Shown here: positions 7,085 through 26,500 of the stretch, piece by piece
Layout: the number at the start of each line of letters is the position of its first letter
Position numbering within the stretch: position 1 is the stretch's first letter
Virus record (IMG/VR): IMGVR_UViG_3300042898_002363
Span: 1-33,920 of that record
DNA length: 33,920 nt
Reading direction: 5' to 3' (one strand)
From: a virus
Notes under the pieces: model-generated
Told to the model about the DNA's origin: nothing
The model's input: the letters and a program-made list of their open reading frames with translations, nothing else
Databases searched by the model: none
Translations under genes and position numbers: made by a program

Positions 7085-7999
7085 TTAAAATGTAATTGAC
7101 CCTGAGCTGGTCCACTGATAAACTCTATATCCACCTGAAACTGTTATTGTTGGTGATCCTGTTGTGCTGGTTGCGGCTGAATAAGAGTCTGCATAGCGAA
7201 TTATTACTATACCTGATCCGCCAGCACCACCATTAACATTGTATCCGCCACCTGATCCGCCACCACCGCCACCGGTGTTAGTTGTGCCTGATGTTCCCGG
7301 TGTTCCTGGTCCACTACCATATGCAGAACCAGCTCCACCTCCGCCATTGCCTCCTGAACCACCGGTTACCCCGCCCCCACCGCCACCGCCTCCTGCATAG
7401 TATGTTGATGTGCCTGAGATAGAACTAGCCGTACCCGCGCCACCGTTTCCTCCGCCGCTACTACTACCATCATTGCCATAAACTTCGGATCCGCCACCGC
7501 CACCTCCTCCATAATTTGGAGCACTTGATACCGGAGCTCCTGCACCGCCTTGGTTACCTTGTGATGGTGATGTAGATGGGGTATTGCCAGCACCACCGGC
7601 GCCACTATACCAACTACCACCGCCTCCTGAACCACCTTGACCTCCAGATTCGGCATATGCATTTCCAGCACCATATCCTCCACCAGTTGAGGTTATAGAA
7701 CTAAAAATTGAGTCATTTCCTTTGCCACCATTGGCAGATAAACTACCTGGTTGTCCGGGCCCGGCAGTACCACCTGCACCAACGGTGACTGTAATAGGTG
7801 AACCGGATGGTACTGAAAAACTTGGTGCAGTTCTATATCCACCTGCGCCACCACCTGCCCCGCGCTCACTATTACCGGATCCGCCGCCGCCACCTCCACC
7901 GGCAACCACAAGATATTCTACAGTAGGAGTAATTGAAGGGCCAGACCCATTTGTCAATACTATGCCAGGTCCAATATTAATTCCGGGTCCGATATCCAT
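7085..7999 (-). CDS. Glycine-rich adhesin-like tail fibre tip protein
   Basis: A 304-residue protein of which about 240 residues are glycine-rich. It starts MDIGPGINIGPGIVLTNG, then has VEYLVVAGGGGGGG, GAGGYRT and VTVGAGG, then runs of GGGGGGG separated by Ser, Asn, Ala and Tyr. It ends GGSGIVIIRY followed by ITVSGGYRVYQWTSSGSITF. This layout is the common phage 'glycine-rich domain' protein. Runs of this kind form polyglycine-II sandwiches in the gp38 adhesin of phage S16, where the loops between runs bind the receptor. The two genes abut (stop TAA, one base, ATG), suggesting coupled translation with the fibre gene 8001-8981. A distal adhesin role is likely. A link to a particular fibre is inference. 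Confidence 0.8.
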   Translation of the reverse strand: MDIGPGINIGPGIVLTNGSGPSITPTVEYLVVAGGGGGGGSGNSERGAGGGAGGYRTAPSFSVPSGSPITVTVGAGGTAGPGQPGSLSANGGKGNDSIFSSITSTGGGYGAGNAYAESGGQGGSGGGGSWYSGAGGAGNTPSTSPSQGNQGGAGAPVSSAPNYGGGGGGGSEVYGNDGSSSGGGNGGAGTASSISGTSTYYAGGGGGGGGVTGGSGGNGGGGAGSAYGSGPGTPGTSGTTNTGGGGGGSGGGYNVNGGAGGSGIVIIRYADSYSAATSTTGSPTITVSGGYRVYQWTSSGSITF

Positions 8000-8982: not shown

Positions 8983-11562
8983 TTATGAAGTCGTTATAAT
9001 TGCAGTGATTGCACTAAAGTTTGTAAATCCCCAAATTTTGTAAGTATGACCTGAAATAGTTGTTGTGCTAGTTGCGTCAGGTGTATCTACAATATCTGAA
9101 CCCAAGAAAATATGTTTAAAAGTACGTGCTGTATTGTTTGGTGTAGCCATCCATAAAAAATCTGTAGGTGTTGCAGTTGTATTTGCTGATTGACCCACTG
9201 TGAAATTGTTACTATTGCGACTATCACTGGTTGTAAACGTAGGAATTGTACTATTAGATGTTGTTTTCCAGAACAACGGATAATATTTTGTTGCTGGGCT
9301 AACTGTACCTGTTACTGTACTTGGTATAGTTCGTTGTCCTGCGCCAAATCCACCTGTACCATTATAGTCAGATGAAGTAAGTGTATATGTATTGGTACTA
9401 TCTACTGATGCGCTAGTACCAGATGTTGCGCCACTAGTTGTCAATGATCCACTGATACTAGCTGTTGAATTTGCATAAGATACATTACCGGTAATGCCAA
9501 TAGCACCTGAGGTAGTAGTTGCATTCCAGTTAAACGTCTGGTTCAAACTCCAATATGGTACTGTGCTATTAGCAAACGTTCCTGATATTGCAGTAACATT
9601 GAAAGGAATTGGTTGATTGTTTGTTAATGTTGTTCCAGTACTAGTTTGTACACCGCGATTAGTTGTTAAACTTACAGAAACTGAATCAGTTGATTGCGTT
9701 TGTACAATAGGAGTTAAGAAACTACTAGGTATTGTATATGTACCACCAGTGCTTGTAATGCCTAACCCAGTTAAGTTTGCACCAGTAACTGTACTTCCAC
9801 CAATTGTAATAGTGTCACTTGACTGAACTGTGAAATTTGCGTTTGCTAATGATAATGTGATTGAAACGTTTTGTGTATTGACTGTTGTTGCGATAAAGTT
9901 TGCATACGCATTTTTACTTGAACCACCGGTCGCCCATGCAGTAGTAGTGTTTAATGAGATTGGTCCTAATTGATTTATCGTAAAGACACCGGCCGGGTAT
10001 GACACATTTGAATAATCTATGCTAATATCTAATGCTGATCCTGCCACAATGCTAGTTACATTAGATACTAAACGCGCCTGTATAGGAGCAAACGAAATAG
10101 CACCATTTCCAGTTGTTTTTAGATATTCCCCTGCGTTTCCACCACCTAAATTGATGTTTGATACATTTCCTAATATAATATTAGCGGCGCCAGTAAAATT
10201 TATATTACCAGTAGCAGTTAAGTTAGGAATACTACCTATAACAGTATCAGCCGCAACTCCAGTCAAAAATCTTCCGTTACCAAAATAGTAGTTATTACCA
10301 ATGTCAATATTACCGGTGCCAGTGATAGTTGTTACTATTAAATTTGCAGTGGTGATTGAGTTACCAGTAACAGATGTATTACCTGTAGTCAATCCAGTAT
10401 TACTTAGTGACACTGTTCCAACATTAACACCCGTATTACTTAGTGATACAGTACCTACATTAACTCCAGTGTTGCTTAAACTTACATTACCTACGTTAAC
10501 ACCGGCGTTACTAACTGATACGTTGCCAACATTAACACCGGTATTGCTTAGTGTAACATTTCCAACATTAACACCAGTATTACTTAGTGATACAGTACCA
10601 ACATTAACACCGGTATTACTTAAACTTACGTTTCCTACGTTAACACCGGCATTGCTAACTGATACATTACCAACATTAACACCGGTATTACTTAGTGTAA
10701 CATTACCAACATTAACTCCAGTATTGCTTAAACTTACAGTACCAACATTGACACCAGTATTGCTTAGTGTAACATTACCAACATTGACACCTGCGTTACT
10801 TAGACTTACGTTACCAACGTTTACACCCGTGTTACTAAGGGCTACGTTACCAACATTGACACCCGTGTTACTCAATGTAACATTGCCTACATTAACTCCA
10901 GTATTGCTAACAGACACATTACCAACGCTAACTCCGGTATTGCTTAAACTTACATTACCTACGTTAACACCGGTATTACTAACAGACACATTGCCTACAC
11001 TAACTCCATTAGCAGTAACACTTGTATTACCAGTGCTAATACCATCAGTAGTAATACTGGTATTACCAGTAGTGATTGAATTACCTGTAATAGATGTATT
11101 ACCAGTACTGACTCCATTAGCAGTGACAGTGGTATTACCTGCACTAATGCCGTTAGCTGTAACCGTAGTATTACCTGCAGTAACTCCATTAGCAGTAACA
11201 CTTGTGTTGCCGGTACTAATGCCATCAGTAGTAATACTAGTATTACCAGTTGTAATTGAATTACCGGTGATAGATGTATTACCAGTACTTACACCATTAG
11301 CAGTAACAGTAGTATTGCCAGTGCTAATACCGTTACTTGTAACACTTGTGTTACCGGTTGTAATTGAATTACCAGTGATAGATGTATTGCCGGTGCTTAC
11401 CCCGTTAGAAGTGATGCTTGTACCATTGGCTCCACCAACAGTAACAGTAGTTACACCTAAGTTTTTCCAGCCTACACCAGACCATTGGTAAGTGTAACCA
11501 TTAAAGATTACTTTCTGACCTATAGTTCCTGTTTTAGGTAGTGCTGTTACAACTGTTGTCAT
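8983..11562 (-). CDS. Fibre-like protein with 12-residue tandem repeats (859 aa)
   Basis: The N-terminus (residues 1-45) includes TIGQKVIFNGYTYQWSGVGW, a small segment seen in many phage structural proteins. Residues about 45-404 are thirty 12-residue repeats in two families: TGNTS(I/V)T.(N/D)G(I/V)S and VGNVSLSNTGVN. Such short regular units suggest a beta-solenoid or trimeric beta-roll shaft, but I cannot name the fold. Residues 405-500 have one FGNGRFLTGV unit and a GGGNAGEYLKTTGNGAISF segment. The C-terminal ~350 residues are Ser/Thr-rich beta domains ending with KYYPLFWKTTSNSTIPTF, DFLWMATPNNTARTFKHIFLG and a hydrophobic tail, probably the tip. An AAGAG lies upstream of the ATG. Confidence 0.85.
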   Translation of the reverse strand: MTTVVTALPKTGTIGQKVIFNGYTYQWSGVGWKNLGVTTVTVGGANGTSITSNGVSTGNTSITGNSITTGNTSVTSNGISTGNTTVTANGVSTGNTSITGNSITTGNTSITTDGISTGNTSVTANGVTAGNTTVTANGISAGNTTVTANGVSTGNTSITGNSITTGNTSITTDGISTGNTSVTANGVSVGNVSVSNTGVNVGNVSLSNTGVSVGNVSVSNTGVNVGNVTLSNTGVNVGNVALSNTGVNVGNVSLSNAGVNVGNVTLSNTGVNVGTVSLSNTGVNVGNVTLSNTGVNVGNVSVSNAGVNVGNVSLSNTGVNVGTVSLSNTGVNVGNVTLSNTGVNVGNVSVSNAGVNVGNVSLSNTGVNVGTVSLSNTGVNVGTVSLSNTGLTTGNTSVTGNSITTANLIVTTITGTGNIDIGNNYYFGNGRFLTGVAADTVIGSIPNLTATGNINFTGAANIILGNVSNINLGGGNAGEYLKTTGNGAISFAPIQARLVSNVTSIVAGSALDISIDYSNVSYPAGVFTINQLGPISLNTTTAWATGGSSKNAYANFIATTVNTQNVSITLSLANANFTVQSSDTITIGGSTVTGANLTGLGITSTGGTYTIPSSFLTPIVQTQSTDSVSVSLTTNRGVQTSTGTTLTNNQPIPFNVTAISGTFANSTVPYWSLNQTFNWNATTTSGAIGITGNVSYANSTASISGSLTTSGATSGTSASVDSTNTYTLTSSDYNGTGGFGAGQRTIPSTVTGTVSPATKYYPLFWKTTSNSTIPTFTTSDSRNSNNFTVGQSANTTATPTDFLWMATPNNTARTFKHIFLGSDIVDTPDATSTTTISGHTYKIWGFTNFSAITAIITTS
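10351..11430 (-). repeat. Tandem 36-nt repeats encoding 12-residue units
   Basis: About thirty in-frame 36-nt units. The first eleven to twelve (N-terminal part) are TGNTSITGNSIT / TGNTSITTDGIS / TGNTSVTANGVS types, in a higher-order order that recurs. The next seventeen are VGNVSLSNTGVN types, with a four-unit block repeated (VGNVTLSNTGVN, VGNVSVSNAGVN, VGNVSLSNTGVN, VGTVSLSNTGVN). One unit of the first family closes the array. The codons differ between copies, so most duplications are not recent. Confidence 0.9.
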
Positions 11563-11585: not shown

Positions 11586-12875
11586 TTATGCTGGTGGCGT
11601 AATGTTAAACCAGTAGTCGCCACCACCTGGATTGTTAATTGGATCATATGGGCCACTACCATCAATTGTTACCCACATCATAGGAGTTGCCTTAGAATTT
11701 GGTGAGTAAATTGTTATAGGTGCGGGGTCAGCTAATCCGTCATTTGTTACTAGCATCCAAATAGAACCATGAGGAATACTTACATTGGGTAAGAAACCCA
11801 ATGTTACTGGGTCTTGATTTGGTGCGATTGTTTGATATCCCATTTCATAGTCAGTGAAGTCATACATGACTGTAGAATAATAGTATCTTGCTTTCCATTG
11901 TGTATTACCATAACCATCAGATGTTAGTACATCAAACAGATTTCCATAGCTACCGTTTGCTGAAATGCCTTTTGATACGGCAATATTTCCCGAAACTGAT
12001 AGATTAGATAATGTACCTACACTTGTGATATTTGGTTGTGCGTTTGTTGTAACAGTGCCTGAAAATTCAGCAGTTAAATTAGCAACTTGTGTTTTTGAAT
12101 TTACAGTTAGCGGAGACGTTCCGTTAGCAACGTTAGATATAAAAGTTTGACCTTTAATGTTACCATACGTTCCACTGAATACTCCATTAGTTTCTGTTCC
12201 ATCTACATAGTATTCAAACGCTAGATTGTCATTACTAAATCCAAAGAACGCATGTTTATCAGTTGTTTTAAAATAGTGTGCGCGGATACCAACATCTTTG
12301 CCGTCATCAGTAGTTAATGGTGCGAGATTAGCTTGGGTATGTAGTTCGATTAATGAATCAGTATAGCTAACATTGTTACTAGAAACAGTAATAGTTGTTC
12401 CAGAAACGGTTAAGTTACCGGTTATAGTAGTATCACCGGTAACAGATAGTCCAGTTAAAATTCCGGTGCTAGTAATATTGGGCTGTGCGGCTGTTGATAA
12501 TGTACCAGAGATATTATTAGCTACTACTAAATTTCCAGTAATGTTAGCATTGCCTGCACTAAAATTACCAGTATATGTCGGTAGATAGTTCTCTACATTA
12601 GAATTTGAATATGATCCCGAAATGGCACCGGCTGGAATATTTGTTAAAAGACTGCCATCACCAACAAAATAGTTAGCATATGCGGCGTTACCCAAATTAG
12701 CATTTGATGTTACTAAACTGCCGGCACTGTATATATTGCCTGCAATTCCAACACCGCCGGCTACTACTAATGCACCGGTCGAACTACTGGTAGCGGAAGT
12801 ATTACCATCGATTGCCAATTGGGTATCGATAGTTGCATTTCCATAAATTCTAGTACCTGATTTTAATAGAGCCAT
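11586..12875 (-). CDS. Tail-fibre-like protein with GTRIYGNA N-terminus (429 aa)
   Basis: It begins MALLKSGTRIYGNATIDTQL, nearly the same as the start of the 1371-residue protein at 13142-17257. Residues 26-55 hold a SATSSSTGALVVAGGVGIAG unit. Then follow a GDGSLLTNIPAGAI unit, two AQPNITS units and, around residues 170-230, a divergent LLHYY/DAFMGW module (SLIELHTQANLAPL, DDGKDVGIRAHYF, HAFFGF). The C-terminal 100 residues (YYYSTVMYDFTDYEMGYQTI to GGGDYWFNITPPA) form an individual domain rich in Pro and aromatic residues, presumably the tip. AAGG precedes the start. Together with the 77-residue gene before it, it mirrors the gene pair 17301/13142. Confidence 0.8.
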   Translation of the reverse strand: MALLKSGTRIYGNATIDTQLAIDGNTSATSSSTGALVVAGGVGIAGNIYSAGSLVTSNANLGNAAYANYFVGDGSLLTNIPAGAISGSYSNSNVENYLPTYTGNFSAGNANITGNLVVANNISGTLSTAAQPNITSTGILTGLSVTGDTTITGNLTVSGTTITVSSNNVSYTDSLIELHTQANLAPLTTDDGKDVGIRAHYFKTTDKHAFFGFSNDNLAFEYYVDGTETNGVFSGTYGNIKGQTFISNVANGTSPLTVNSKTQVANLTAEFSGTVTTNAQPNITSVGTLSNLSVSGNIAVSKGISANGSYGNLFDVLTSDGYGNTQWKARYYYSTVMYDFTDYEMGYQTIAPNQDPVTLGFLPNVSIPHGSIWMLVTNDGLADPAPITIYSPNSKATPMMWVTIDGSGPYDPINNPGGGDYWFNITPPA

Positions 12876-12896: not shown

Positions 12897-13130
12897 TTAT
12901 GTAATTCCTGAGACCTCGTCAAAAACTCCGGAAATTTTAAGTACACCCGTATTTAGCTGTTGCATGGCCTTGCCATTTTCGGTGCCGGTGTACTCATCCA
13001 AAGTATAAGCAAACACCCCATTGGGGGTGATGCTTATGTTGCTCTGACTGATTTCGTTAAACCCTACATTAGCATTGCTGTTAACGTAGAGCTTGCCATT
13101 ATTATCCAATCTAGCCGCAATATTAGCCAT
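12897..13130 (-). CDS. Small virion-like protein, LamG-less paralogue of 17301-18242
   Basis: A 77-residue protein beginning MANIAARLDNNGKLYVNSNA with a strong GGAGGTGAA ribosome binding site that overlaps the stop of the upstream gene. Its two halves match the two ends of the 313-residue protein at 17301-18242. NEISQS...GVFAYTLDEYTG (25-49) aligns with DEVTQS...QIFANEFDEIT. GKAMQQLNTGVLKISGVFDEVSGIT (53-77) aligns with the last 24 residues, GKMKQRKSGQLLVANEFDEYTGIT. The laminin-G-like domain in the middle of that protein is absent here. This shows a common scaffold with or without an inserted lectin fold. The function is unknown; it may be a connector between fibre and virion. Confidence 0.8.
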   Translation of the reverse strand: MANIAARLDNNGKLYVNSNANVGFNEISQSNISITPNGVFAYTLDEYTGTENGKAMQQLNTGVLKISGVFDEVSGIT

Positions 13131-13141
13131 TTCACCTCCAA

Positions 13142-16100
13142 TTAATTGAAGATAAAGTCTAAACTATTTGCAGTGTCGTTGAATTGAATGTATGCCTTAC
13201 TTGCAGTTCCACCGTTGTTATTAGCAAATCCAACTGATTTACCAGTATAGATATTGCCTGTTGCTGCCATACCACCGGTTACTTTCACTGTACCAGTAAT
13301 ACTAGATGTTGAATCTGTATTAGCTGATGCAGTAATTGTATTTGCGGCGGTGATGTGATTACCACTAATATTACCGGTTACGTCAAGTGTACCAGTTATA
13401 TTAGCTCCTACACCAGTAACAGTAAGTACAGTAGTTCCACCCTGTACCATCACAATGTTACCATTTAGAGTAGGGATGCTTACGTTACTTGTACCATTTA
13501 CAATTTTACCAGTATCATTAGATATAAAACTTAAATTTCCTGCGCCATCTGTTGAAATAATTTGACCACTTGTGCCACCAGAAATTTTAACATTAGCAAG
13601 AGATTCTAGCGTAGTTAAACCGGTTACAGTTAACGCAGTCAAACTACCAACGCTTGTAATGTTTGGTTGCGCATTTGTATAAACAGTACCTGCGATTAAT
13701 GCATTAGCTACTTGACCAGAAACATTAGCACCGGCAACGTTACTAAGTTGAACACCATTACCAATAAATTGTCCAGCATTTACGTTACCCGATGCTGTCA
13801 CATTATCAACTGTAAGGATGTTACCAGTTGTATTAAACAACAAGTTTGCATTGTCAGATAGTAATCCACCCGCTGTTGCAAATGTAATTCTACCTGAAGT
13901 TAAGTTACGTGAAGTGACATTACCCGCAGTCATATTGACTGCAACGTTAGCATTTCCACTCTTTAATTCATTAGTTAATGTATCAAATTGTAAATCAGCA
14001 TCATCAGATAATAAACCGTCTGTTCCTGCAAATGTAACACGTCCGCTTGTTAAAGAACCTGCGGTAACTTTTGTAGTTTTAACATAACCATATCCAGTAT
14101 CACCGCCAATTTCAGTACCGCCAGCGCCTGGCTTCAATACTTGATTACTATTGTCCCAAGTTAAGTTAGTAGTATCAGTTAGATTATTACTAGAACCTAC
14201 ATAAGGAATGCGTGTAGATGTTAAACTAGCAGTAATAATATTACCGACTGTTAGATTACCAGATACGTTAGCTGTACCAGTAACTGTTAATGTATTACTA
14301 GTTGCATTAAATGTAAAATTATTACTTGCGGCTAAGTTATTAGAACCAGTTGCCTTGAATTGAATTTCCGTAGCATCTCCTGCCGCTGTTTGGAAGTCGA
14401 TTGCGGCTCCGTTTGCATAATAGTAACCATCTGTGTAGACACCACTTGCATTTGCAATGAATGCACTACTAGCTACATTTAGTGTTGTAGCAACATTTAG
14501 ATTACCCAACGTACCAACACTAGTAATATTTGGTTGCGCAGCCGTTGTTAATGTACCAGTAAAGTAGTTAGCAGACATTAAGTTTGCTCCACTTATAGAG
14601 CCACCTGAGGCACCACCAAATGTTGCATTACCTGCAGTTAAATTACCAGTTAAGTCTAAACTTGTACCAGTTGCAACACCAATGTTTGGTGTAACCAATG
14701 TTAGACCATCTTTAACTTTTAATGAACCGGATACAACAGCAATGGTAGAATCATCAACTTTAGCACTAAAATTAGTACCAATTAATTGTACACCGTTACT
14801 AGCTGAGTATGACCCAGTGCCTGAGAATTGCGTCCATGCAATTGGATCAGTACCAATTACGATTTCACCATTAGTAGATATAACCCATCCCGAATCACTA
14901 TTGTAAGTACCTTCTTCAACGAAAGTAAATGATCCAGCAGTAAGTTCACCATTTGCTTCAGCATCTATAGCACGTGTCCATGTGCTAGCAGATACAACAT
15001 AGATACCATTTTGACTTGCATTAGTTTGATTTTTAACTAGAACACGATTACCAGCAACAAGTACCACACCATCAACAGTTTGAGTACCACTTAATGTAAT
15101 GTCTGTTGTTGTGGCCGCACGAACTGAACTCTTAATATCCAATCCTTGTGATGAAGCATCAACGTAACCCTTTGTAGCGGCGTCAGTAGCTTGAGTAGGA
15201 GTTGCCAAACCAGTAATACGTTTGCTAGAAACATCAACTGTACCAGTGCCTTGCGGAGCTAATACGATGTTACCATCTGCGCCGGCAGTTACAGTTACAT
15301 TTATTCCTTTTGCAAGAATGTTATCTGTGATTACATTTGCATTAGATTGAATATTTCCTGAAGAAACTAAACCTGTTAATGTACCCAAACTAGTAATGTT
15401 GGCTTGTGCCGCATTTGTAACAGTGTTTGAGTAACCATTAATATTAGCATTAGCAACGTTAGTGACTGTCAAGTCAATCAATGTACCAACAGTAGTGATA
15501 TTAGGTTGAGCATTAGAATTTACATTTAATGTACCCTCTAATAATGTGGCCTTTAATGTACCAGTAGTTGAAGTAAATGTAAGATTAGCATCTCCAACTA
15601 TCTTGCTACCATTTGCAAATGCAACTTGTGTATTCGATAGGTTGTTAGCAGTAACGTTAGCACCAGTGATTGCACCAGATGCAGTCAGTGTCACCGTGCT
15701 AATTAAATTAGAAGCAGTAATATTGATTGTGTTAATTGAGTTAGATAAAGTAACCCCGTCTGCATTAGAAGTAATTGTTTGTGAACCTAGTATAAGACTA
15801 CTACCAGACAAATATAAGTCTTTCCATGCACGTGTAGAATTACCTAAATCATACGCAACGTCTGCTGACGGAATAAAATCCCCAGTAACCAATGCACCTG
15901 CACTCATTGTCAAGTTACCAACAGTAGCTCTACCCGCAGTACTTAAATTACCAACCGTAGCGTTACCAGTTACGTTTGCTGTACCACCTGACACTAAATT
16001 ACCAACGGTAGCAGTACTTGTAACATTAGCTGTACTACGTACTGTTAAATATTCTACGTTAGCTGTGCTACTTGCACCAGTACCATTAATGTCGCCACCT

Positions 16101-17257
16101 GTTGTTAAATTACCAACATTTGCTGTGCCAGTAATATTTGCATTACCACCTGCAGTTATATTACCAAGTGTAGTACTAATATTTCCTGTAGCAGATAGTG
16201 TAACAGTTGATACATCAGCATTAGAAATTACGTTACCACCAGTTATGTTCCCAGCAGTTAGTAAATTTCCACCAGTTATGTTAGCAGTCGCAGTTATAGT
16301 ACTACTAGTAATTACAACATTAGCAGTAGCATTACCTGTTGAGATGTTTCCAGTAGCTACTATATCAGTAGTACCAAGATTACCAACGTTAGCATTACCT
16401 GTTACACTTAGTGTTCCGGCTGTTGATAGATTACCACCAGTAACTGTACCACTGACAGTTAATATATTACCAGTTCGATTAAACGTGAATGCTGGGGAAG
16501 CATTTTGACCTCCGCCATCATTAAATTGAACTTCAGTAGTATTACCTTTAGCTGAGATGTTACCTGAAATGTTACCTGCAAATGCTCCATATATTGTTCC
16601 ACCAACATATAAATTACCACCAATACCTGCGCCGCCTGTAACTAATAGTGCACCTGATGTATTCGATGTAGCAGTGGAAGCGTCAGTAATAGATACTACA
16701 CCACCTGCAGTAATTGTACCATTACCAAACGTAGTATTTGCAGTTGCATTACCTACAGTTAAACCAGTTAGTGTACCTACACTAGTAATATTAGCTTGTG
16801 CATTATTTGTAACGTTACCTGCATATGCAGACATGTTAGCACTAGGAACAGTGCCAGTAACATTAGCACCAGTGATACTAGATAGAGTGTCACCAATACC
16901 AACAAAGTGCAATCCATGAATGTTACCATATGTACCTATCGTAACTGCATTGTTTGCTGAATCCCATGTAGTGGTACTTGCTAGTGCAAATTCGCCTGCG
17001 CTTTGATCCCAACCCAAGAAGCCTGTTTTGGCTGCTCCGTCGTTATACTGTAAGATAAGACCACGATCAAGCCCGTCATTTGTACTGTTTGTACCTAATG
17101 TGATTACCGGATCTTCAATTGTTGTTATTGTCGAATCAACTGTAGTAGTTGTTCCCTGAATTGTCATATTACCAGTAACAACTAAATCCAACGTGGTTAG
17201 TGTAGAATCAACATTAGCATTACCGTAAATTCTAGTACCGCCTTTTAATTTTGCCAT
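13142..17257 (-). CDS. Giant modular tail-fibre-like protein (1371 aa)
   Basis: The largest gene in the window, with AAAAGGAAAA before the ATG. It starts MAKLKGGTRIYGNANVDSTL, then has a DAFMGW-type module at about 45-95 (EDPVITLGTN, GLDRGLILQY, GFLGW, EFALAS). A SGALLVTGGAGIGGNLYVGG unit follows near residue 200, then a long shaft of TANVGNL, TATGNI and TVSGTANVSGN-like units with five AQ(P/A)NIT units. Residues about 680-815 contain TGLATPTQATDAATKGYVDA, VLVKNQTNASQNGIYVVSA and TFVEEGTYNSDSGWV, a compact domain common in phage virion proteins. The last 33 residues (GKSVGFANNN to NSLDFIFN) resemble the end of the 18246-18773 protein. It is likely a long trimeric fibre shaft. Confidence 0.85.
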   Translation of the reverse strand: MAKLKGGTRIYGNANVDSTLTTLDLVVTGNMTIQGTTTTVDSTITTIEDPVITLGTNSTNDGLDRGLILQYNDGAAKTGFLGWDQSAGEFALASTTTWDSANNAVTIGTYGNIHGLHFVGIGDTLSSITGANVTGTVPSANMSAYAGNVTNNAQANITSVGTLTGLTVGNATANTTFGNGTITAGGVVSITDASTATSNTSGALLVTGGAGIGGNLYVGGTIYGAFAGNISGNISAKGNTTEVQFNDGGGQNASPAFTFNRTGNILTVSGTVTGGNLSTAGTLSVTGNANVGNLGTTDIVATGNISTGNATANVVITSSTITATANITGGNLLTAGNITGGNVISNADVSTVTLSATGNISTTLGNITAGGNANITGTANVGNLTTGGDINGTGASSTANVEYLTVRSTANVTSTATVGNLVSGGTANVTGNATVGNLSTAGRATVGNLTMSAGALVTGDFIPSADVAYDLGNSTRAWKDLYLSGSSLILGSQTITSNADGVTLSNSINTINITASNLISTVTLTASGAITGANVTANNLSNTQVAFANGSKIVGDANLTFTSTTGTLKATLLEGTLNVNSNAQPNITTVGTLIDLTVTNVANANINGYSNTVTNAAQANITSLGTLTGLVSSGNIQSNANVITDNILAKGINVTVTAGADGNIVLAPQGTGTVDVSSKRITGLATPTQATDAATKGYVDASSQGLDIKSSVRAATTTDITLSGTQTVDGVVLVAGNRVLVKNQTNASQNGIYVVSASTWTRAIDAEANGELTAGSFTFVEEGTYNSDSGWVISTNGEIVIGTDPIAWTQFSGTGSYSASNGVQLIGTNFSAKVDDSTIAVVSGSLKVKDGLTLVTPNIGVATGTSLDLTGNLTAGNATFGGASGGSISGANLMSANYFTGTLTTAAQPNITSVGTLGNLNVATTLNVASSAFIANASGVYTDGYYYANGAAIDFQTAAGDATEIQFKATGSNNLAASNNFTFNATSNTLTVTGTANVSGNLTVGNIITASLTSTRIPYVGSSNNLTDTTNLTWDNSNQVLKPGAGGTEIGGDTGYGYVKTTKVTAGSLTSGRVTFAGTDGLLSDDADLQFDTLTNELKSGNANVAVNMTAGNVTSRNLTSGRITFATAGGLLSDNANLLFNTTGNILTVDNVTASGNVNAGQFIGNGVQLSNVAGANVSGQVANALIAGTVYTNAQPNITSVGSLTALTVTGLTTLESLANVKISGGTSGQIISTDGAGNLSFISNDTGKIVNGTSNVSIPTLNGNIVMVQGGTTVLTVTGVGANITGTLDVTGNISGNHITAANTITASANTDSTSSITGTVKVTGGMAATGNIYTGKSVGFANNNGGTASKAYIQFNDTANSLDFIFN

Positions 17258-17289
17258 TTTATTTTCCTTTTATTCTTTCGTTTGTTAGT

Positions 17290-17311
17290 TTATAGTGTTC
17301 TTACACTGTAA
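17290..17311 (-). other. Imperfect RNA hairpin over the stop codon of 17301-18242
   Basis: On the plus strand TATAGTG...CACTGTA forms a stem of about nine pairs, one of them G-T, with a TCTT loop. The stop codon of the 17301-18242 gene falls in the loop. There is no T-tract, so it is not an intrinsic terminator. It lies in the 43-nt gap before the 1371-residue fibre gene and might affect message processing. This may be chance. Confidence 0.3.
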
Positions 17312-18242
17312 TCCCAGTATACTCATCGAATTCATTTGCAACTAGTAATTGACCAGATTTTCTCTGCTTCATTTTTCCGTTGTAATTAGACGATAAAGGT
17401 GTCAATGCACTGTAAGTTGCACCACCAACATTAGTAACAGCCTTACTCGTTCCCGAATCATCTGCTGTTAAAGCCTCTGAATTTATTACTTTTAATAACA
17501 ACACAGTAGCTGAACCGGTTATAGCAGAGATGTTAACACTGCTAAGTTGTGTAGCACCAAGAGGAGAATACGGTGTACTGAAATTACCAGTATACACTGC
17601 TACCCCTTTTACTACACGAAAATTAGTTATATTACCAGTGAAGAAACCATCTGTACCTGTAGTTGAACTTTGACCAGTAACATCAGTTGAGCCTTCACCA
17701 CCTATGACTAGTGCTCTAGATGTGGTTGAATTGAATGGGGCGTTGTCAGTGATTACTGATATACCATTAACATATACTTTAGCATCAGTTGCAGATGTTT
17801 TAACTAATGCTACATGAAACCATTGATTTTGAGGTATTACATTAGATCCACTGCTGATAGGTACGTCTACACCATTCCAATAATATAATGCTGAACCTAG
17901 TAGTTCAACGTTGTCACCGTTTGGGAAACACCATAGACGTTGATATGAAGTTGCGGTAGCATAAAACCATCCTTCAACCGTGAACGGGTTGTTGCCAAAT
18001 TGAAAATCACCACTACCAGCAACTGTTAGATAACTAGTTGTGCCATTTAATAGAATCGAACCTCCAGAGGGTTGACCTGTTGATAAAGTAATTTCATCAA
18101 ATTCATTTGCAAATATTTGTGTAGCCGTGACGCTATGCGTGGATTGAGTTACCTCATCCAAACCATCGTCAAATTCCAACGGATCATTACCTGATGTGAG
18201 CAATGTTCCGTCATGTTTTAATCTTGCACCAATTGTTGCCAT
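17301..18242 (-). CDS. Virion protein with laminin-G/concanavalin-A-like lectin domain
   Basis: A 313-residue protein starting MATIGARLKHDGTLLTSGND. Residues 20-54 carry two DE(V/I)T motifs (DGLDEVTQS, ANEFDEITLS). Residues about 61-228 are a LamG-like jelly roll: SILLNGTTSYLTVAG, FTVEGWFYAT, QNQWFHVALVKTS, KVYVNGISV and GNITNFRVVKGVAVYTGNF. This is the pattern of Laminin_G_3 domains, which usually bind carbohydrate. The final 25 residues return to the scaffold motif (LLVANEFDEYTGIT). The ATG is four bases after the previous stop, with only GGA as a weak ribosome site. A role in glycan binding at the virion surface is plausible, but no ligand can be named. Confidence 0.85.
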   Translation of the reverse strand: MATIGARLKHDGTLLTSGNDPLEFDDGLDEVTQSTHSVTATQIFANEFDEITLSTGQPSGGSILLNGTTSYLTVAGSGDFQFGNNPFTVEGWFYATATSYQRLWCFPNGDNVELLGSALYYWNGVDVPISSGSNVIPQNQWFHVALVKTSATDAKVYVNGISVITDNAPFNSTTSRALVIGGEGSTDVTGQSSTTGTDGFFTGNITNFRVVKGVAVYTGNFSTPYSPLGATQLSSVNISAITGSATVLLLKVINSEALTADDSGTSKAVTNVGGATYSALTPLSSNYNGKMKQRKSGQLLVANEFDEYTGITV

Positions 18243-18245: not shown

Positions 18246-18773
18246 TTATCCGTTAAATTTAAAATCTATACTACTAGAAGACGGGTTATAATTAATAACT
18301 CCTTGCGGGCTAGCATTAGAACTTGTTGCCAAATTAATATTGCCTCCCACAGTCAAATCCTTTTTAACTCCCACACCGCCTTCGGTAATGAAACTTCCGG
18401 TACTAGTAGATGTAGATTGTGTACTACTATTTATGACAAGTTGCGTATTCACTGTTACAGTGTTAGCATTTAATGCATCTAGGAACATGTTTCCAGCAAT
18501 AATTCCGTCAACATTCGCTGAGATTGTTTGCCCATTAATGTCAATATTACCGGCTAAGAATAAATCTTTGTATCTGCTAGAAGCGTTTGCTAGTGATAGT
18601 ACACCATTAGAATTAGGGATTAGGTTAGACGCTAATAAAGTAACAGACAAGTTGCCCGCTTTTACTAAATTAACGGCGTTAATGTTGGCTACATTAGCAT
18701 TGCCACTGGCAGCATCCAACGTGATATTGCCGGTAGTTATACCTACTTTAACATTAAAATTTCTTGTTGTCAT
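18246..18773 (-). CDS. Short fibre-like protein with FKFNG C-terminus (175 aa)
   Basis: It starts MTTRNFNVKVGITTGNITLD and reads as a short shaft: NVANINAVNLVKAGN, SRYKDLFLAGNIDINGQTIS, and then a STSTSTGSFITEGGVGVKKD unit near residues 117-145 that also occurs in three other fibres here. It ends PQGVINYNPSSSSIDFKFNG, which matches the last residues of the 1371-residue fibre (AYIQFNDTANSLDFIFN). The segment ...SRYKDLFL.GN...NGQTI resembles 'W(R/K)DLWLSG' segments in the other fibres. The ribosome binding site is weak (GAGAAT). It looks like a minimal version of the longer fibres and is probably a structural appendage protein. Confidence 0.75.
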   Translation of the reverse strand: MTTRNFNVKVGITTGNITLDAASGNANVANINAVNLVKAGNLSVTLLASNLIPNSNGVLSLANASSRYKDLFLAGNIDINGQTISANVDGIIAGNMFLDALNANTVTVNTQLVINSSTQSTSTSTGSFITEGGVGVKKDLTVGGNINLATSSNASPQGVINYNPSSSSIDFKFNG

Positions 18774-18790: not shown

Positions 18791-20017
18791 TTAATCCGTA
18801 ATATAAGTACCGACAAAATTTACAACCGTATTTGCGTTAGAACCCGATGCGTATAATTTAATGTTCCCTGATGAAATATTACTAGAAATACTAACGATAC
18901 TATTGCTGTCTGCCGCGGTACTAATTGAACCATAAATTGTTATGAAACTGTCAGTTCCGTTGTGTATTAATAATATTTCTAAAGATTCATAACCATCATC
19001 ATTACTGGCTTTAACTACATATTTAGCAGTTCTGGCCGAAGCGACTGCAAAACTATCGATTTCGGTATTAGATCCTGTGTTGACAGAAACCGTGTTCAAA
19101 TCTCCACTAAAAATAGTGGATATAGTTATTGAGTTTGCGGTAACATTATCTACCGATAAATTTCCTGCTATAGCAGAAGTCGAAATATTAGTTAGTAAAC
19201 TACCATCACCAATAAAATAATTAGCATACGTAGCATTACCTAAATTAGCATTAGTAGCTACTAGATTTCCCGTAACTGTTGTATTTCCCGTAACAGTTGT
19301 GTTGGCAGATAGACTAATAGTACCAGTACCATCTGGATTCAATATTATGTCACTATTCGCAGATATGCTTGAAATTGTAGTATCGGCTATTCTTAAGTTA
19401 CCAATATTAGCAGAAGTAGTAATTACAACTGTATTTGCAGTTAGTGTATCGGCTGAACTAATACCAAATTTACCTACATATCTAGCACCACTTACAAATA
19501 TACTTTTACCAGTAACACCGGTTGTTATAGCAGTGGGTAAACTAGTTCCAATAAAATGTAGTACACCTGATTGATAATCAAAGAACCATTCATCATTACT
19601 GCTTGCACTTGCGCCGGCTGCAAAAATCTGTGTACCAGTTGATTGAGGTACTGTTGCAGTAGCATCATCGATGTAAACACTAACTAAATAAGTTGCTCCA
19701 AATTCAGGTGGAATCCAATCAGTAAGATTAGTTTTCCAAGTTCTGTTATCACTTGCTCCCAAGTCTTCTGTTAATTTAACTGTAGGAGTCCAAGACCCAG
19801 TTCCATCTTTATAAATTCTAACAATAGTAGAAGTTGTATCAGGTCTAGCGTTAGGGATTTCTGAAGACTGTGCCCATAATTTATCCGCACGTAGTAGTAA
19901 CGGACTAGGTATAGATTCGTTAAACGCTAATTTATTTGCCGCGGTATCAGTTTTAGTTACCCCGAAGCCTACCTTTTTCCAAAGATAGTCAAGTTGTTCT
20001 GTAGTAGATAAAGCCAT
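18791..20017 (-). CDS. T4-like pelagic phage virion structural protein (408 aa)
   Basis: The N-terminal half is a distinctive domain I recognise from marine T4-like phages: TTEQLDYLWKKVGFGVTKTD, ANKLAFNESIPSPLLLRADK, LWAQSSEIP, WIPPEFGATYLVSVYID, then NDEWFFDYQSGVLHFIGT. It is probably the part attaching to the virion. Residues 205-300 are a short repeat shaft with a GDGSLLTNISTSAI unit. The last ~95 residues (FAVASARTAKYVVKASNDDG, LEILLIHNGTDSFITIYGSI, then the C-terminal strands) form a beta domain also found at the C-termini of the 23545-26565 and 26578-27282 proteins. The start codon overlaps the previous stop by one base (TAATG), with GGAG upstream, so translation is coupled. Its exact place in the particle is unknown. 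Confidence 0.85.
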   Translation of the reverse strand: MALSTTEQLDYLWKKVGFGVTKTDTAANKLAFNESIPSPLLLRADKLWAQSSEIPNARPDTTSTIVRIYKDGTGSWTPTVKLTEDLGASDNRTWKTNLTDWIPPEFGATYLVSVYIDDATATVPQSTGTQIFAAGASASSNDEWFFDYQSGVLHFIGTSLPTAITTGVTGKSIFVSGARYVGKFGISSADTLTANTVVITTSANIGNLRIADTTISSISANSDIILNPDGTGTISLSANTTVTGNTTVTGNLVATNANLGNATYANYFIGDGSLLTNISTSAIAGNLSVDNVTANSITISTIFSGDLNTVSVNTGSNTEIDSFAVASARTAKYVVKASNDDGYESLEILLIHNGTDSFITIYGSISTAADSNSIVSISSNISSGNIKLYASGSNANTVVNFVGTYITD

Positions 20018-23000
20018 TAACTAAAACTCCATGATGTTATATAATCTCCTGAAGCAAGAACAATACTGAATAACAATTGATTGCCAAATGCATTAGATAA
20101 ATTTTCACTGCCCAATGTAAAACGATATGTTGTACCTGAAACAACAGTTCCAGTAGGTACTCTATCTGCTACAGTAATAGCACAACCATTACTTCCGTTT
20201 CCGCCTGTACCTGCTCCAGGTACACCACTACCAGCATATGATAATGATGCATTGATCCATCCATTCAATGTACTTGCTGTGCTAATTGCTGTTCCAGGTG
20301 CCGCAAAAAACAAACCAGATATCTTACCAGTAAATGTTACATTAAAGTTTTGTAGTGACCCTTTTGTGAATGCTCCACGGAAGTATTGATTGCCACTTGT
20401 TCTACCTGAATTTAAGTTGGGTCCAACTGGTAAGTAACCTGTACTTAAATCAGTATTGAACCATTTAAGTTGATTCCAACGAACTACTGCTTCATCGGTA
20501 CCTGCAATAGTTGCGGCGCCAGTCCATACGTTACCCGTATAATAGTTAGTGCTATTGCTGACCGTAGGTGTAGCTCCGGTTGCACCTGAAATCGCAATAC
20601 GTTTTCCAGTGGCAGCTCCTGAGGGTGCAGTAATACTTGTCTCTACAAATCCAGCTGGAGTTGATGTGAAGACTTGAATTTTCGTAGCTAATGTTGCTGT
20701 TGCACTTGTTCCGTTTACGTTTGTAGCACTGTACTTGATAGTTTGAACTGCTGTAGTACTTGCGGGTGCTACATTAATAGTTTGTGATCCTATAGTATAC
20801 TTGTTACTAGAATCTTTACCTGTATCAGCTTTTGGTATACCACTTGACAAGAATGTAATTGACCCATCTAAATTAGTATATGTTTTAGTCTGTGATGCAA
20901 TAACATTACCGGTAGTGCCTTCATCATTTGTGTCTGGTGCGATACTAAATGGTGTTGTCGTATTCTGATATGTCTGACCAATCCAGTTAAAAATCTGTGC
21001 ACCGGCTAATGTTACTGTAGGACTTCCTGTGTTAAAATATGGAATACCTGAAATGTATAAGTAAGTTCCAGCAGTTCCTGTAGTCAACGTAGCACCAGAA
21101 ACATCTACTGTAGGTACTGAAGTTAAATCATCTTTAACATAACCAACTGGGTTTGTATTTCCGGTAGTAGTGTGAGTTAACTTAATTTGATTGTACCCTG
21201 TGCTTATACTAGCAATTGCTTTGGTTGCATATGCCGAGAACACTTTGTAAAAATTACTAGGGTAAGTAGCCGGACTAGGTACATGGGCATCTCTGTCTAA
21301 CGTAACCACTAAGTTACCATATGTACCAGCATTATCACTTGATGTGAATGCAATAGCACCATCATCTACTCCGTTGAACTCAGTAGTTAGTGTACCGGTA
21401 TACGAATTGTATACATCGCTAACTGTGTTAGTTACTACAGTACCAGTTGTATATCGTGTTACGCTTGTACCGGCAGCTGGGATATTACCACCTGAGTTAT
21501 CAGTTGCAAGTGCTGCCAAATATGGACTTGTTCCAACACTTGCTGTAGTCATACTTAATGTCTTAGCACTCAAGCCAGCCGGTGCAGAAGGTGCCGCGTT
21601 AATCGAAATGTAATTAATTTTAGTATTAGTGTCATCAGTTAATGATTCACTATATGTACCAGTAGCTAATAATTCAATTGTATAGTTACCTACACTAGTG
21701 AATGTATGGTCGATAGTAGAGCCAGGTGTACCTCCACCACTAGTTATTACTCCGCTATTGCTTCCGTCACCCCATGTCCATTTGTATGAATCTGTGTTTA
21801 GTGAACTATTAGTAAATCTAACAACTGCTCTATTAGTACCGTTCAAGTCAGTGAAGTAATATCCCGTTTGCGATGTATCACCTGTTCTATCTGACAATGT
21901 AACTACATTACCAGTAAAGATTGATTGTGGATCAGGGTGTACAGTTACAGTGACTGTTGATGAACTGAATGGGCTAGTTGAATATCCATTGTATACTTCT
22001 AATTTTACAGCAAATGTTTGTGTTACTGCAGGATCAGATAAACTGAATTTGTGAATTATGTCAACGCTTCTATCACCGGCATTGCCCGAACCAGAGTCTA
22101 CACTGGTAGTTGTGCCATCATCCCAGGTCCATTTGTAATAGTTTTCAGAGAACGTTGATGTAGCTCCCACGCCGGCTGCTGTTGTATTAGTAAAGGTAAC
22201 ATTCCAACCATCTGGAGTCAATGTATAATCATTGTTTCCTTCAAGCGTACTTGTAGTAAATGCTGGTGTATGTGTTTTGTATACATACACATTTTGTGTC
22301 GCACTATTAATACTTACGTCAATTGGACCTGCTGTTGTACTAGTAGCTACAATATATGGTTGATATCTAGTATCTGCGCTGCCAGTTACACTATACGTAT
22401 GTGACTTTGCTCCACCACCAACCCCGCCTGCTACTGCATTTGATAGAATTGCATCAGATGTTCCATCTCCCCAATGAATCACATAACTTTGTGCATATTG
22501 ACTAGTGTTTGTTAATGATATTGTTCCACCAGTGTCAGTTGAGGTCTTATCTAAAGTGAAACTTGGGATTGGTGTGGGTGTGTACAAGGTAATGTAATTT
22601 GTTTTTACTCTATTATCACTTGCTCCCGCACCAAGACCATTAATATTACTTACTGTTAACGTAACTGTAAACGTGCCACCTTCTGCGTTAGTATATGTCT
22701 TTGTAGGAGTTGAGCTTGTACTAGTCGTCCCATCACCAAAATCCCATAGATAGTCAGTGTTAGTACCGTTGAATGTTCTGCTAAATGCCAGTGATAATGG
22801 GCTAGGTCCTGCAACGGCATTGGCAGTAAAATCTACATTACCAACAAAAGTATTTTTAACAACATTTAACATTACTTCGTTTAGGTCATCAATAGCATTA
22901 GTTACTGTTGTATCAGTTGACCAAGTATCTAATGCGCCAGGTGACATTAAGTTAGTATCATAAGGATCTCCCAGTGGGATTGCATTTCCTTTAATGGCTG

Positions 23001-23535
23001 CTCCTCCACCAGTTGAGGTAATACTTCCCGTAAGATTGATGTTGCCTTCAATGGTAATATTTCCACCGGTAGATATATCACCAATCGTTACTACATTACC
23101 TAATCTTATATTACCAAACTCATTATATGTTACCGTGTTAGTAACTTTGTTTACTGCTACGTTACTTGCAAGTGCAAACTCTGCATTGCTATTGTCCCAA
23201 CCAATGAAAGCATCGACTGGCGCCATACTACCATAATAATGAAGCACAGAACCTCGATCTGCATTATCATTGGTTGTTAACGGTGCACCGTTAGGGCCGC
23301 CGCCTGTTTCTGTTAGTGGATCAGATACATAGGTAGTAGTTGTTTGAATATATGATACGGCACCTAGTACTGTCAAATTACCAGTAATATTAGCATCGCC
23401 TGTTACTGATAAATTATTTCCAACTGATAGGTAATTTGCACTAACGTTGGCGTTAGCGTCTACTACATCTACAGGTGTTTCATCTCCTACTGAGAATCCA
23501 CCAAGCGAGTTAAATTTCTTTAGTATTGTTGCCAT
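20017..23535 (-). CDS. Large fibre-like protein with four PKD domains (1172 aa)
   Basis: It begins MATILKKFNSLGGFSVGDET, the same N-terminal tag as the next two upstream genes. Residues 65-130 are the LLHYY/DAFMGW module (DPLTETGGGPNGAP, DRGSVLHYYG, DAFIGW, FALASN). Residues 200-228 hold DTWSTDTTVTNAIDDLNEVM. Four PKD-type Ig-like domains follow, at about 231-318, 322-420, 425-535 and 540-648, each with its signature (WDFGDG at 264, HWGDG at 354, WTWDDG at 469, WTWGDG at 586) and a later strand such as GTFTVTLTVSN. The C-terminal 500 residues are Thr/Ser-rich beta domains ending in GDYITSWSFS. PKD domains serve in surface binding and spacing in many secreted proteins, so a rigid adhesive stalk is likely. 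Confidence 0.85.
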   Translation of the reverse strand: MATILKKFNSLGGFSVGDETPVDVVDANANVSANYLSVGNNLSVTGDANITGNLTVLGAVSYIQTTTTYVSDPLTETGGGPNGAPLTTNDNADRGSVLHYYGSMAPVDAFIGWDNSNAEFALASNVAVNKVTNTVTYNEFGNIRLGNVVTIGDISTGGNITIEGNINLTGSITSTGGGAAIKGNAIPLGDPYDTNLMSPGALDTWSTDTTVTNAIDDLNEVMLNVVKNTFVGNVDFTANAVAGPSPLSLAFSRTFNGTNTDYLWDFGDGTTSTSSTPTKTYTNAEGGTFTVTLTVSNINGLGAGASDNRVKTNYITLYTPTPIPSFTLDKTSTDTGGTISLTNTSQYAQSYVIHWGDGTSDAILSNAVAGGVGGGAKSHTYSVTGSADTRYQPYIVATSTTAGPIDVSINSATQNVYVYKTHTPAFTTSTLEGNNDYTLTPDGWNVTFTNTTAAGVGATSTFSENYYKWTWDDGTTTSVDSGSGNAGDRSVDIIHKFSLSDPAVTQTFAVKLEVYNGYSTSPFSSSTVTVTVHPDPQSIFTGNVVTLSDRTGDTSQTGYYFTDLNGTNRAVVRFTNSSLNTDSYKWTWGDGSNSGVITSGGGTPGSTIDHTFTSVGNYTIELLATGTYSESLTDDTNTKINYISINAAPSAPAGLSAKTLSMTTASVGTSPYLAALATDNSGGNIPAAGTSVTRYTTGTVVTNTVSDVYNSYTGTLTTEFNGVDDGAIAFTSSDNAGTYGNLVVTLDRDAHVPSPATYPSNFYKVFSAYATKAIASISTGYNQIKLTHTTTGNTNPVGYVKDDLTSVPTVDVSGATLTTGTAGTYLYISGIPYFNTGSPTVTLAGAQIFNWIGQTYQNTTTPFSIAPDTNDEGTTGNVIASQTKTYTNLDGSITFLSSGIPKADTGKDSSNKYTIGSQTINVAPASTTAVQTIKYSATNVNGTSATATLATKIQVFTSTPAGFVETSITAPSGAATGKRIAISGATGATPTVSNSTNYYTGNVWTGAATIAGTDEAVVRWNQLKWFNTDLSTGYLPVGPNLNSGRTSGNQYFRGAFTKGSLQNFNVTFTGKISGLFFAAPGTAISTASTLNGWINASLSYAGSGVPGAGTGGNGSNGCAITVADRVPTGTVVSGTTYRFTLGSENLSNAFGNQLLFSIVLASGDYITSWSFS

Positions 23536-23544: not shown

Positions 23545-26500
23545 TTAAATAGTTTTATATTGAGTTGTCCATACTGTAGAATCACTAGTTGCCGGTGTAA
23601 CAGTTAATTGAATGTTTCCACCAGCATTATTAACTCCTAAACTACCAGTATAACCTCCTATATTTAACGTACCATATACGTCATAAGCTATATCTGTTCC
23701 GTTGTGTACTGCGACTACTGTAGCTACACTATATTTACCACCAACAACTTCTTCACCTTTTACAAAGAATTCAACTGCTCTGTTAGTAGAAGAACTTACC
23801 TCTGCAAGAATTTGTCCTGCGGCAGCGGTTGTAGTAGTAACTGTATATGAACCAATAGTTGAATTACCAATAGTTACTGTGTTACTTGAAATATCGTTTA
23901 ACTTAATATTACCTGCAATTAGTGAACCACTGATTGTTAGGTTACCAACTACGTTAGCTCCGGTATTTGTTACAACCAATGAGGTAACTGCATTTGCGGT
24001 TAAATTAATGTTACCATCATAGTTAACAACAATATTACTAGAACCGTTAATCAAACTGTTTGTTTTAATCGTAGTGAAACCAAGATTGGCTGCACCATCT
24101 GATGTCATAATAGTTAGCTCGTCTGACGCAGGTACACTACCATCAGTCTTTGGATATTTTAAATCGCTAGCAATCAATGTAGTTACTTTTGCATTGTTAA
24201 CGTTAAGTGTATTAGATATGTTTGCGTTAGTTAGTCCAAGTAGATTACCAATGTTAGGTTGATTGCCAGTTTCTATAATACCATACACATGGTTACCGTA
24301 TAAAGTATCAATACGTAAATTAGCGTAATCTCCGGCGACGATATTATCACTATCAGTAATACCAGTCAACATTTGGAATTCACTTGAACCAGTCTTCCAA
24401 CCCATAAAGTGATTAACCGCAACACTATCAAATGTTCTTAATATTAGACCTCTATCAAATAGATCAGATGAAGTTGCATTAGCACCATTGCCAGCACCAC
24501 CCAAATCCATTACCGGATCTTTGATACTTGATGTAGTTACATCGATATAAGTTGTACTACCTGTCACTAACAAATTACCACTTACAGTAACATCTCCAGT
24601 AACACTAGCATTTCCACCTACTTTAAGATCACCCGTAATATTAGCATTAGCACTAGCTAAACTAGTACCAACTAAAAGATTACCATTTATATTTGCAGTA
24701 GTACCGCCAATGTATATATTGCCACCAACACCAACACCACCGGTTACTGTAAGTGCACCAGTTGTAGAACTAGTTGCTGACGAATTTGTAGTAATACTAG
24801 TATTACCAGATACAGTTAATGTTTGTCTGTTAGTTGCATTTCCTATAGTTGCGTTACCAGTGGTGATGATATTACCTGTCCATAGATTGGTAAATATATT
24901 TGCATTAGCTGTTACGAACGTATTACTTGTACCGGATGACAGTGTAGTAGTACCCAATTGAATTGTGTTTCCAGATAGCCACAAGTCTCTCCAGCGATTT
25001 GTTGTACTACCAAGATCATATCCAGGGCGACTCACACTACCGTCTGCGTCAATAAACGGAACTAAATCACTATCTACGTAGCTAGTAACAGTCAAATTAT
25101 TAGTAGTTAAGTTAGATGTAATATTTGCATCAATACCAACTAATAAGTTACCGGTAATGTTTGCATTCATTGATACAGTACCATTACCAACTGTTAAGTT
25201 ACCTAAAATATTTGTAGTACTTGCTACGTTTAAGTTTCCACCCAATTCAACATCACCGCGGATGTTACCAATTGCGCTAATGAATAAAGTATTGCCTCTT
25301 AACTCACCTGTGTTTGCATAGATATTTCCGGGAGCTTTAAGATCACCGGTTGTGTCAAATGACCAGTGATTACCATGAACTTGAATATCAAATCCATTGA
25401 CATTTGCGGTTGCAATTGTGCTGTTAGCTACATTAGCTACATCGTTATATTTTAATTGCGCTGAAGTGTTAGCTGTAACTACTATTGAGTTTGTAACAGT
25501 GCCGTCAATGTAACCACCGTTTGAAAACGTAATGCTTGATGCATTTGTAATATTAGCTACTGATAAATTGCCAGTTAATGTTACTAAGTTACTAGTCTTG
25601 TTGTACGTTACGCCAGGAGTACTTTTAACAACGTTAGCATCGTTGAACAACATTTCACTGATGTTACCGGGGGCTTCTAAGTTACCCTTAATGGCTCCAC
25701 CTTGAATATTACCTGAGAAGTTACCGGTAAACGTATCAGCAGATAAATTACCAATTACATTAACGTTACCGGCTATGTTTGCGTTAGCACTTACAAACAA
25801 ATTACCAAGAGATATATCTGCTTTTTCAACACCTAATTTTAATACCCATGCATTTGAAGATTCAGTCCACAATAAGGTTGCGTTAGCTCCGGCAGTACCT
25901 CTATCAACTTCTAATCCAGATGTTCCTAAACTAACTCCGTTACCTGTTTCACCTTTGTTCAATGTAATAACATTATCATCAATAGTGGTATTATTAGTAG
26001 ATAGGCTAGTTACAGTACCATTAACAGTTAAGTTACCGTTAATAGTTGCATCTGATGTTGTTGTTAAATTAGTAACTGTAAGAGTTTCAGATATTGAGCT
26101 ATACGTAAAATTAGCGTTGCCGACTAATATACCATTTGCACCCGAAAATAATACTTGAGTAGTTGATAAGGTATTGACTAAAACATTTGCCGCTACTATG
26201 TTGCTGGTGGCTTCGATGTTAACTGTTTTGAATTTCTTAATAGAATCATCATACGTTAAATCAGAGCTGGCTGCAAAATTATTACCAGTATTATACTGAA
26301 TGTAATTGTTACTTCCTGCCGCCTCTTGTAAATCCCAAGCTACACCATTAGCGTATAACAAGTTATCTGTTCTAATATTTCCGGCAAGTAAGGTATTTCC
26401 TACTGTAATATTACCTGTACTAGGCGTTGCTAAAATATTACCAACAGTAATGTTAGTTAAAACTGTAACGTTACTGGTTGATACATCGCCATTAGGATAT

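Follow-up and report, generated by a model that had tools for sequence, protein, structure and literature searches.

FDE-repeat scaffold proteins with and without a LamG domain at fibre-gene junctions of a T4-like phage and its uncultured relatives

Two small proteins of the fibre block

The window analysed here, the whole 33,920-base stretch of virus record IMGVR_UViG_3300042898_002363, comes from a T4-like phage. Its capsid gene (gp23; 27434-28630, minus strand) is nearest to those of Vibrio phage 2.275.O (67.7% along its entire length) and of E. coli phages of about 350 kb. Downstream of the capsid gene, the minus strand carries a long run of repetitive fibre-like genes, and no annotated counterpart of this array was found directly after gp23 in Vibrio phage 2.275.O. 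Two small proteins of this run, of 313 and 77 amino acids (aa), are the subject of this work. They alternate with fibre-like proteins in the reading order 175, 313, 1371, 77, and 429 aa (Table 1). The original prediction, made from the letters of the window, had described these genes as a tandem duplicated two-gene cassette, one copy with and one without a LamG domain, and had proposed a swappable receptor-binding slot. Its open reading frames and coordinates for the cassette genes are correct.

The 77-aa protein had been said to align with both ends of the 313-aa protein, and it does. Pairwise alignment with BLOSUM62 gave a score of 81 for the N-flank and of 57 for the C-flank, compared with 23.6 ± 4.9 and 23.0 ± 4.2, respectively, for 500 shuffles, none of which scored as high in either case. 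A hidden Markov model (HMM) of the 77-aa family agrees: in each of the 14 relatives found for the 313-aa protein, it matches two collinear segments (E values of 2e-13 to 1.5e-6 for the N-flank and of 7e-7 to 1.5e-3 for the C-flank); a divergent alignment of 12 scaffold sequences was too variable for scanning the collection. The homology claimed for the shared ends holds, with the correction that the 313-aa protein ends in ..GITV, one residue later than stated. The region absent from the 77-aa protein, placed at about 17379-18080 and taken for a LamG-like fold, proved to be an insert at 17382-18071 that matches Pfam Laminin_G_3 (PF13385) at residues 66-212 (E 9.6e-11; 42.5 bits, with a cut-off of 27.6). 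Among PDB structures, pentraxin and laminin-G folds match the AlphaFold model of the LamG core (E 2e-8), for which the predicted local distance difference test score (pLDDT) is mostly 75-92. At the level of sequence, it is confirmed that the 313-aa protein is the 77-aa scaffold with a LamG domain inserted after its second and before its third FDE motif, and that the two flanks of the insert are homologous to the 77-aa protein.

We define the FDE-scaffold family by three FDE-type motifs within about 75 scaffold residues together with an R1-type start (xARLxxxGxL), and by a context in which the preceding gene ends in ..YN..S[LI]D[FT].F and the next one starts with GTRIYG or MARKAIL. Both window proteins have this start, the three motifs (Table 1), and this context. 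Neither Pfam nor PHROG holds a family that matches the 77-aa bare form. Among 50,697 isolate phage records, there was no match to three bare scaffolds (the 77-aa protein, another member of its class, called class 1, and one of the class 2 described below), nor to the GTRIYG N-terminus, and the PDB contains no credible relative of the bare scaffold or of its Gly-rich versions.

The two genes that precede the scaffold copies, encoding the 175-aa and the 1371-aa proteins, are alike in their last ~70 aa (INYN..SIDFKFNG and IQFN..NSLDFIFN), and the genes that follow begin with MAKLKGGTRIYGNA (1371 aa) and MALLKSGTRIYGNA (429 aa). Since both the fibre ends and the starts of the next genes are alike, what is repeated is a junction, i.e., the end of a fibre, a small protein, and the start of the next fibre. 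Thus, the proposed repeat exists, but it is not limited to two genes, as it also spans the C-terminal ~70 aa of the preceding fibre genes. The second members of the supposed cassette (1371 and 429 aa) are alike only in ~20 N-terminal residues (MA.LK.GTRIYGNA) and in low-complexity fibre repeats.

Table 1. Features of the scaffold junctions in the window
Feature	Position	Strand	Evidence or remark
175-aa fibre-like protein, precedes scaffold copy 1	18246-18773	-	C-terminal 75 aa aligns with the 1371-aa C-terminus
Tip motif INYNPSSSSIDFKFNG, last ~26 aa of the 175-aa protein	about 18249-18326	-	
313-aa FDE-scaffold protein, copy 1, with LamG insert	17301-18242	-	Alignment, HMM, Pfam, model
N-flank of copy 1 (residues 1-57), with the first two FDE motifs at residues 28 and 48	18072-18242	-	
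LamG / concanavalin-A-like insert, residues 58-287	17382-18071	-	Pfam PF13385; pentraxin/laminin G fold
C-flank of copy 1 (residues 288-313), with the third FDE motif at residue 305	17304-17381	-	
1371-aa fibre-like protein	13142-17257	-	Between copy 1 and copy 2
N-terminus of the 1371-aa protein, MAKLKGGTRIYGNA, after copy 1	17198-17257	-	
C-terminus of the 1371-aa protein, IQFNDTANSLDFIFN, before copy 2	about 13145-13222	-	
FDE-scaffold protein, copy 2, bare (77 aa), with its motifs at residues 24, 44, and 70	12897-13130	-	
429-aa fibre-like protein, N-terminus MALLKSGTRIYGNA, after copy 2	11586-12875	-	

A fixed arrangement in the closest relatives

Searches with the 77-aa and 313-aa proteins yielded 14 loci having both copies, and a search for the junction added four more (L095, L104, L105, and L108, where the bare copy starts with GTG). 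The window clade comprises in total 19 loci including the window, or 18 if the near-identical L081 and L083 are counted once. These and all the other relatives, numbered here with the prefix L, are metagenomic contigs; assembly chimaeras are conceivable, yet the patterns recur across many samples.

In 19 of the 19 loci, the upstream copy is the long LamG form and the downstream copy is bare. The relatives of the 77-aa protein are 60-95% identical to it, and both copies occur at every related locus with enough sequence, indicating that the duplication is old and ruling out a recent tandem event. The distances between LamG domains follow those between flanks (Mantel r 0.81, p 0.001, 12 loci). 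With a mean identity of 0.58, LamG is no more variable than its cassette neighbours (0.53-0.61), and the bare copy, with 0.73, is the best-conserved part of the cassette.

Bare and insert-bearing scaffolds in other phages

A search for GTRIYG starts retrieved 80 loci. At nearly all those with enough upstream sequence, the preceding gene encodes either an FDE scaffold or a phrog_5838 protein that itself follows a scaffold of the second class, and a class-1-seeded search found the same junction at four of four loci. The bare class-1 scaffolds (L102, L109, L110, L114, L126, L139, and L170) have 71-77 aa, with FDE near residues 20, 40, and 66, whereas those with inserts reach up to 1613 aa. The inserts occupy four positions: before the first FDE motif (L148, L162), between motifs 1 and 2 (L115, L128), between motifs 2 and 3 (the window, L158), and after motif 3 (L103, L119, L123). 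The original prediction had suggested looking in related phages for the same flanks around other domains, and the same scaffold is indeed found with other domains in other uncultured phages. Apart from LamG, present in one to seven copies per scaffold (Pfam, PHROGs), the inserts comprise Gly_rich_2 domains above the cut-off (L123, L136, L138, L149), a PA14/GLEYA domain (L141), a Fibrinogen_C-like domain (L134), and a domain of the phrog_5939 tail proteins (L128, L158); some have no Pfam or PHROG match. Clustering at 80% identity gave 14 bare and 40 insert-bearing scaffold clusters, counts that depend on the detection rule. A scaffold-like gene of L022 (2911-7269; 1453 aa) has six LamG matches and the same junction (..NSLDTIFG / MAKLQTGTRIYG).

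The second class (M.VVGRLDQY..EFDE..VIVYNEIDE) precedes the phrog_5838 virion protein, which starts with MARKAILETGY. A class-2-seeded search yielded 31 complete loci, all 31 of them preceded by a fibre end of the type ..YN..NSLDF.., while the following gene starts with MARK..LE in 29 cases, with GTRVYG in one, and is not readable in another. Eleven of these scaffolds are bare (96-103 aa), and 20 contain inserts (234-600 aa). The kinship of class 2 to class 1 is suggested by motif and position, the alignment between them not being significant.

Several pairs of loci differ by an insert on a shared backbone. In class 2, the scaffold of L153 (259 aa) has an in-frame insert of 505 bp in place of 22 bp of L156 (98 aa), with flanks 85% identical over 232 bp and, downstream, 93.5% identical over 3386 bp. 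L113 has the backbone of L156 (87.8% and 90.1%) with an insert after the third motif. A stretch of about 730 bp behind the third FDE motif distinguishes L145 from L147, with flanks of 87.5% and 78.9%. In class 1, the bare scaffold of L102 corresponds to a LamG-bearing one in L103 (flanks 82% and 77% identical), and L122 and L127 carry unrelated inserts between flanks 91% and 94% identical. These pairs, together with the bare, LamG, and other forms found at the same junction, strongly support the proposal that the scaffold accepts or loses a lectin domain.

In another pair, L162 and L169, 8 kb of sequence with the scaffold gene in it are 97.8% identical, and from position about 8054 the two contigs abruptly differ. 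The break falls inside the first ~55 bp of the GTRIYG gene and is likely a recombination breakpoint at the junction.

The tip motif of the preceding fibre

The motif YN-x(4-6)-S[LI]D[FT] lies in the C-terminus of the fibre gene directly before the scaffold, and in the window no fibre-like gene ends in it except the two preceding the small scaffold proteins. Applied as a fixed pattern to the last residues of genes, it was found in 56 of the 65 distinct genes located before a detected scaffold and in 3 of 311 other genes from the same loci (Fisher 3e-53); relatedness among the loci makes them non-independent and this p-value too strong, but the difference is clear. Nine genes lacked the motif and on later inspection turned out to have variants of it: eight end in NSLDFV[AS]G and one in GLEFNFN. 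The three apparent false positives (L095, L104, L138) precede scaffolds that the detection rule had missed.

Other features of the window

The 859-aa protein encoded at 8983-11562 (minus strand) contains at least 18 tandem units of 36 nt (10234-11145), i.e., a 12-aa repeat of the GNVSLSNTGVNV type, and the plus-strand reading frame 10301-11491 is its antisense shadow. Three consecutive minus-strand genes (20017-23535, 23545-26565, and 26578-27282) share the N-terminus FNS[VL]GG[FY][ST]VG, so that the fibre block has two families of repeated N-termini. The gene 7085-7999 (minus strand) encodes a glycine-rich protein (Gly_rich_2, E 1.1e-23) and has a G+C content of about 0.51, compared with 0.38 around it; this domain type also occurs as a plug-in within other scaffolds. 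Residues about 667-835 of the 1371-aa protein are about 51% identical to a protein of cyanophage PSS2 annotated as a capsid decoration protein, and comparable stretches of other phages carry a tail-fibre annotation. Finally, the N-terminal ~220 aa encoded by 18791-20017 (minus strand) correspond to phrog_9417, which large phages of Caulobacter and Brevundimonas also have, often under the annotation of tail protein.

A possible platform for exchangeable adhesin domains

We propose that the 313-aa and 77-aa proteins are old paralogues within a family of small FDE-repeat scaffolds, encoded directly after a fibre gene with the tip motif, and that this tip or joint scaffold carries exchangeable adhesin domains; we give this reading a probability of roughly 0.6. 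It builds on the homology of the flanks, the fixed junction, the inserts at four positions, and the with/without pairs, all established by sequence comparison. The scaffold would bind the C-terminal tip of the preceding trimeric fibre, either capping it or joining it to the next segment, and would be a structural part needed even when bare. The plug-in LamG, Gly-rich, or PA14 domain would be displayed there and might contact glycans of the host surface, a receptor-binding role that is suggested by the type of domain. Since the DNA is conserved on both sides of the scaffold gene, homologous recombination at these sites can exchange the scaffold or its insert between related phages, and such an exchange would leave fibre assembly undisturbed. 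The lineage of the window has come to rest with LamG in copy 1 and no insert in copy 2.

Several observations weigh against this reading. Within the window clade, the Mantel test rejected recent swapping, and the slot is frozen. Thus, the swappable slot of the original prediction finds support outside this clade but not inside it, where all 19 loci are fixed, and it is not a single slot, as the inserts occupy four positions around three FDE motifs. Most loci came from the GTRIYG seed, which biases the sample of junctions and is partly corrected by the class-2 and L139 seeds. No confident AlphaFold model was obtained for the scaffold, with a pLDDT of 55 for the 77-aa protein and below 50 for the flanks of the 313-aa protein. 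In addition, LamG and Gly-rich domains need not bind receptors, and the "head and packaging" annotations of PHROG families matched by neighbouring genes mean that the fibres could sit on the head.

The scaffold might instead be above all a joint similar to the knee protein gp35 of T4 that links each fibre segment, at its C-terminus, to the N-terminus of the following one, with the inserts as lateral branches of secondary importance. The window and every class-1 locus have a ..SLDxxF end before the scaffold and a GTRIYG start after it, an order that resembles 34-35-36-37 of T4 (PMC3004832). In class 2, however, the next gene usually starts with MARKAIL and not with GTRIYG, so that the N-terminal partner is not constant, whereas the C-terminal motif of the preceding gene is; we consider this alternative unlikely, although a serious one. 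Also unlikely, but worth the same attention, is that the fibres decorate the head rather than the tail and that LamG provides general adhesion (e.g., to mucus, particles, or cell surfaces) instead of specific receptor binding. The gene block comes after gp23, several PHROG matches near the scaffolds bear the head label, the closest gp23 relatives are large phages of about 350 kb, and fibres on the head and the tail sheath are known in jumbo phages such as 121Q (PMC7824862). On the other hand, neighbouring genes also match tail-fibre PHROGs, and head or tail labels of such repetitive families are unreliable.

Rather improbable, in our view, is a role in assembly only, in which the inserts aid folding or are passengers and the bare scaffold, absent from the virion, serves the fibre encoded before it as a transient chaperone or trimerisation cap, like T4 gp38 or gp57A. 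The small size of the scaffold, its location directly after a fibre gene, as in T4 genes 37/38 (PMC3004832), and the high conservation of the bare copy would fit such a role, but a chaperone has no need for one to seven lectin-type domains at varied positions. The view that there is no common scaffold and that the similarity reflects nothing more than the low-complexity repeats general to phage fibre proteins deserves practically no credence, as the genes adjoining the scaffolds are indeed very repetitive but the shuffle tests, the two collinear profile matches, and the flanks conserved in all relatives contradict it.

Beyond the paralogues of the window, we put forward more tentatively, and at slightly less than even odds, that large uncultured T4-like phages share a display platform, consisting of the tip motif and an FDE scaffold of ~75-100 aa, in which unrelated adhesin domains are exchanged at four positions with the flanking DNA as recombination anchors. 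If true, this platform would allow phages to retool their attachment with their fibres unchanged. The small, previously unnamed protein family defined here would mark sites of exchangeable attachment domains in these phages, and the pairing of tip motif and scaffold offers a simple rule by which metagenomic phages can be screened for candidate receptor-binding domains. The with/without pairs serve as natural experiments on adhesin gain and loss.

Comparison with known systems

The nearest functional analogy to the proposed role of the scaffold is the tip adhesin gp38 of T2 and S16, whose N-terminal part binds gp37 and whose variable part, framed by Gly-rich elements, contacts the receptor (PMC12892980). 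In both cases, a small protein is encoded beside a fibre gene and Gly-rich modules are present; a PDB sequence search with the Gly-rich proteins and the 77-aa family gave no match to gp38. Unlike gp38, the FDE scaffold would attach through its FDE repeats, may be bare, and exchanges whole unrelated domains instead of loops. The T4 joint gp35 is likewise a smaller protein encoded between consecutive fibre-segment genes, in the order 34-35-36-37 (PMC3004832), but it is a monomer of 372 residues, whereas the FDE scaffold has 71-103 aa when bare and contains exchangeable domains. No sequence relation to gp35 was found, as no Pfam family, PHROG family, or isolate phage record matched the 77-aa protein.

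LamG domains have been described on jumbo-phage fibres (PMC7824862), and structural proteins of cyanophages and jumbo phages carry the same Laminin_G_3 domain type as the scaffolds. The phrog_5838 homologue of cyanophages S-RSM4 and S-H9-1 lies directly after a gene for a large virion structural protein, and in S-H9-1, the structural protein in this position contains a LamG match to the query. These cyanophage proteins (1161-1539 aa) have no detectable FDE repeats.

Domain mosaicism in receptor-binding proteins usually combines a fixed anchor with an exchanged distal part. Unlike this usual arrangement, the tiny FDE scaffold takes domains before, between, or after its repeats. Recent domain shuffling in tail fibres and spikes is well documented for receptor-binding proteins (PMC10684548). 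Our limited search of the open-access literature found no description of a small FDE-repeat scaffold with several insertion positions tied to a tip motif and no paper combining LamG with phage domain swapping. That receptor-binding proteins shuffle their domains and that jumbo-phage fibres carry LamG was already known.

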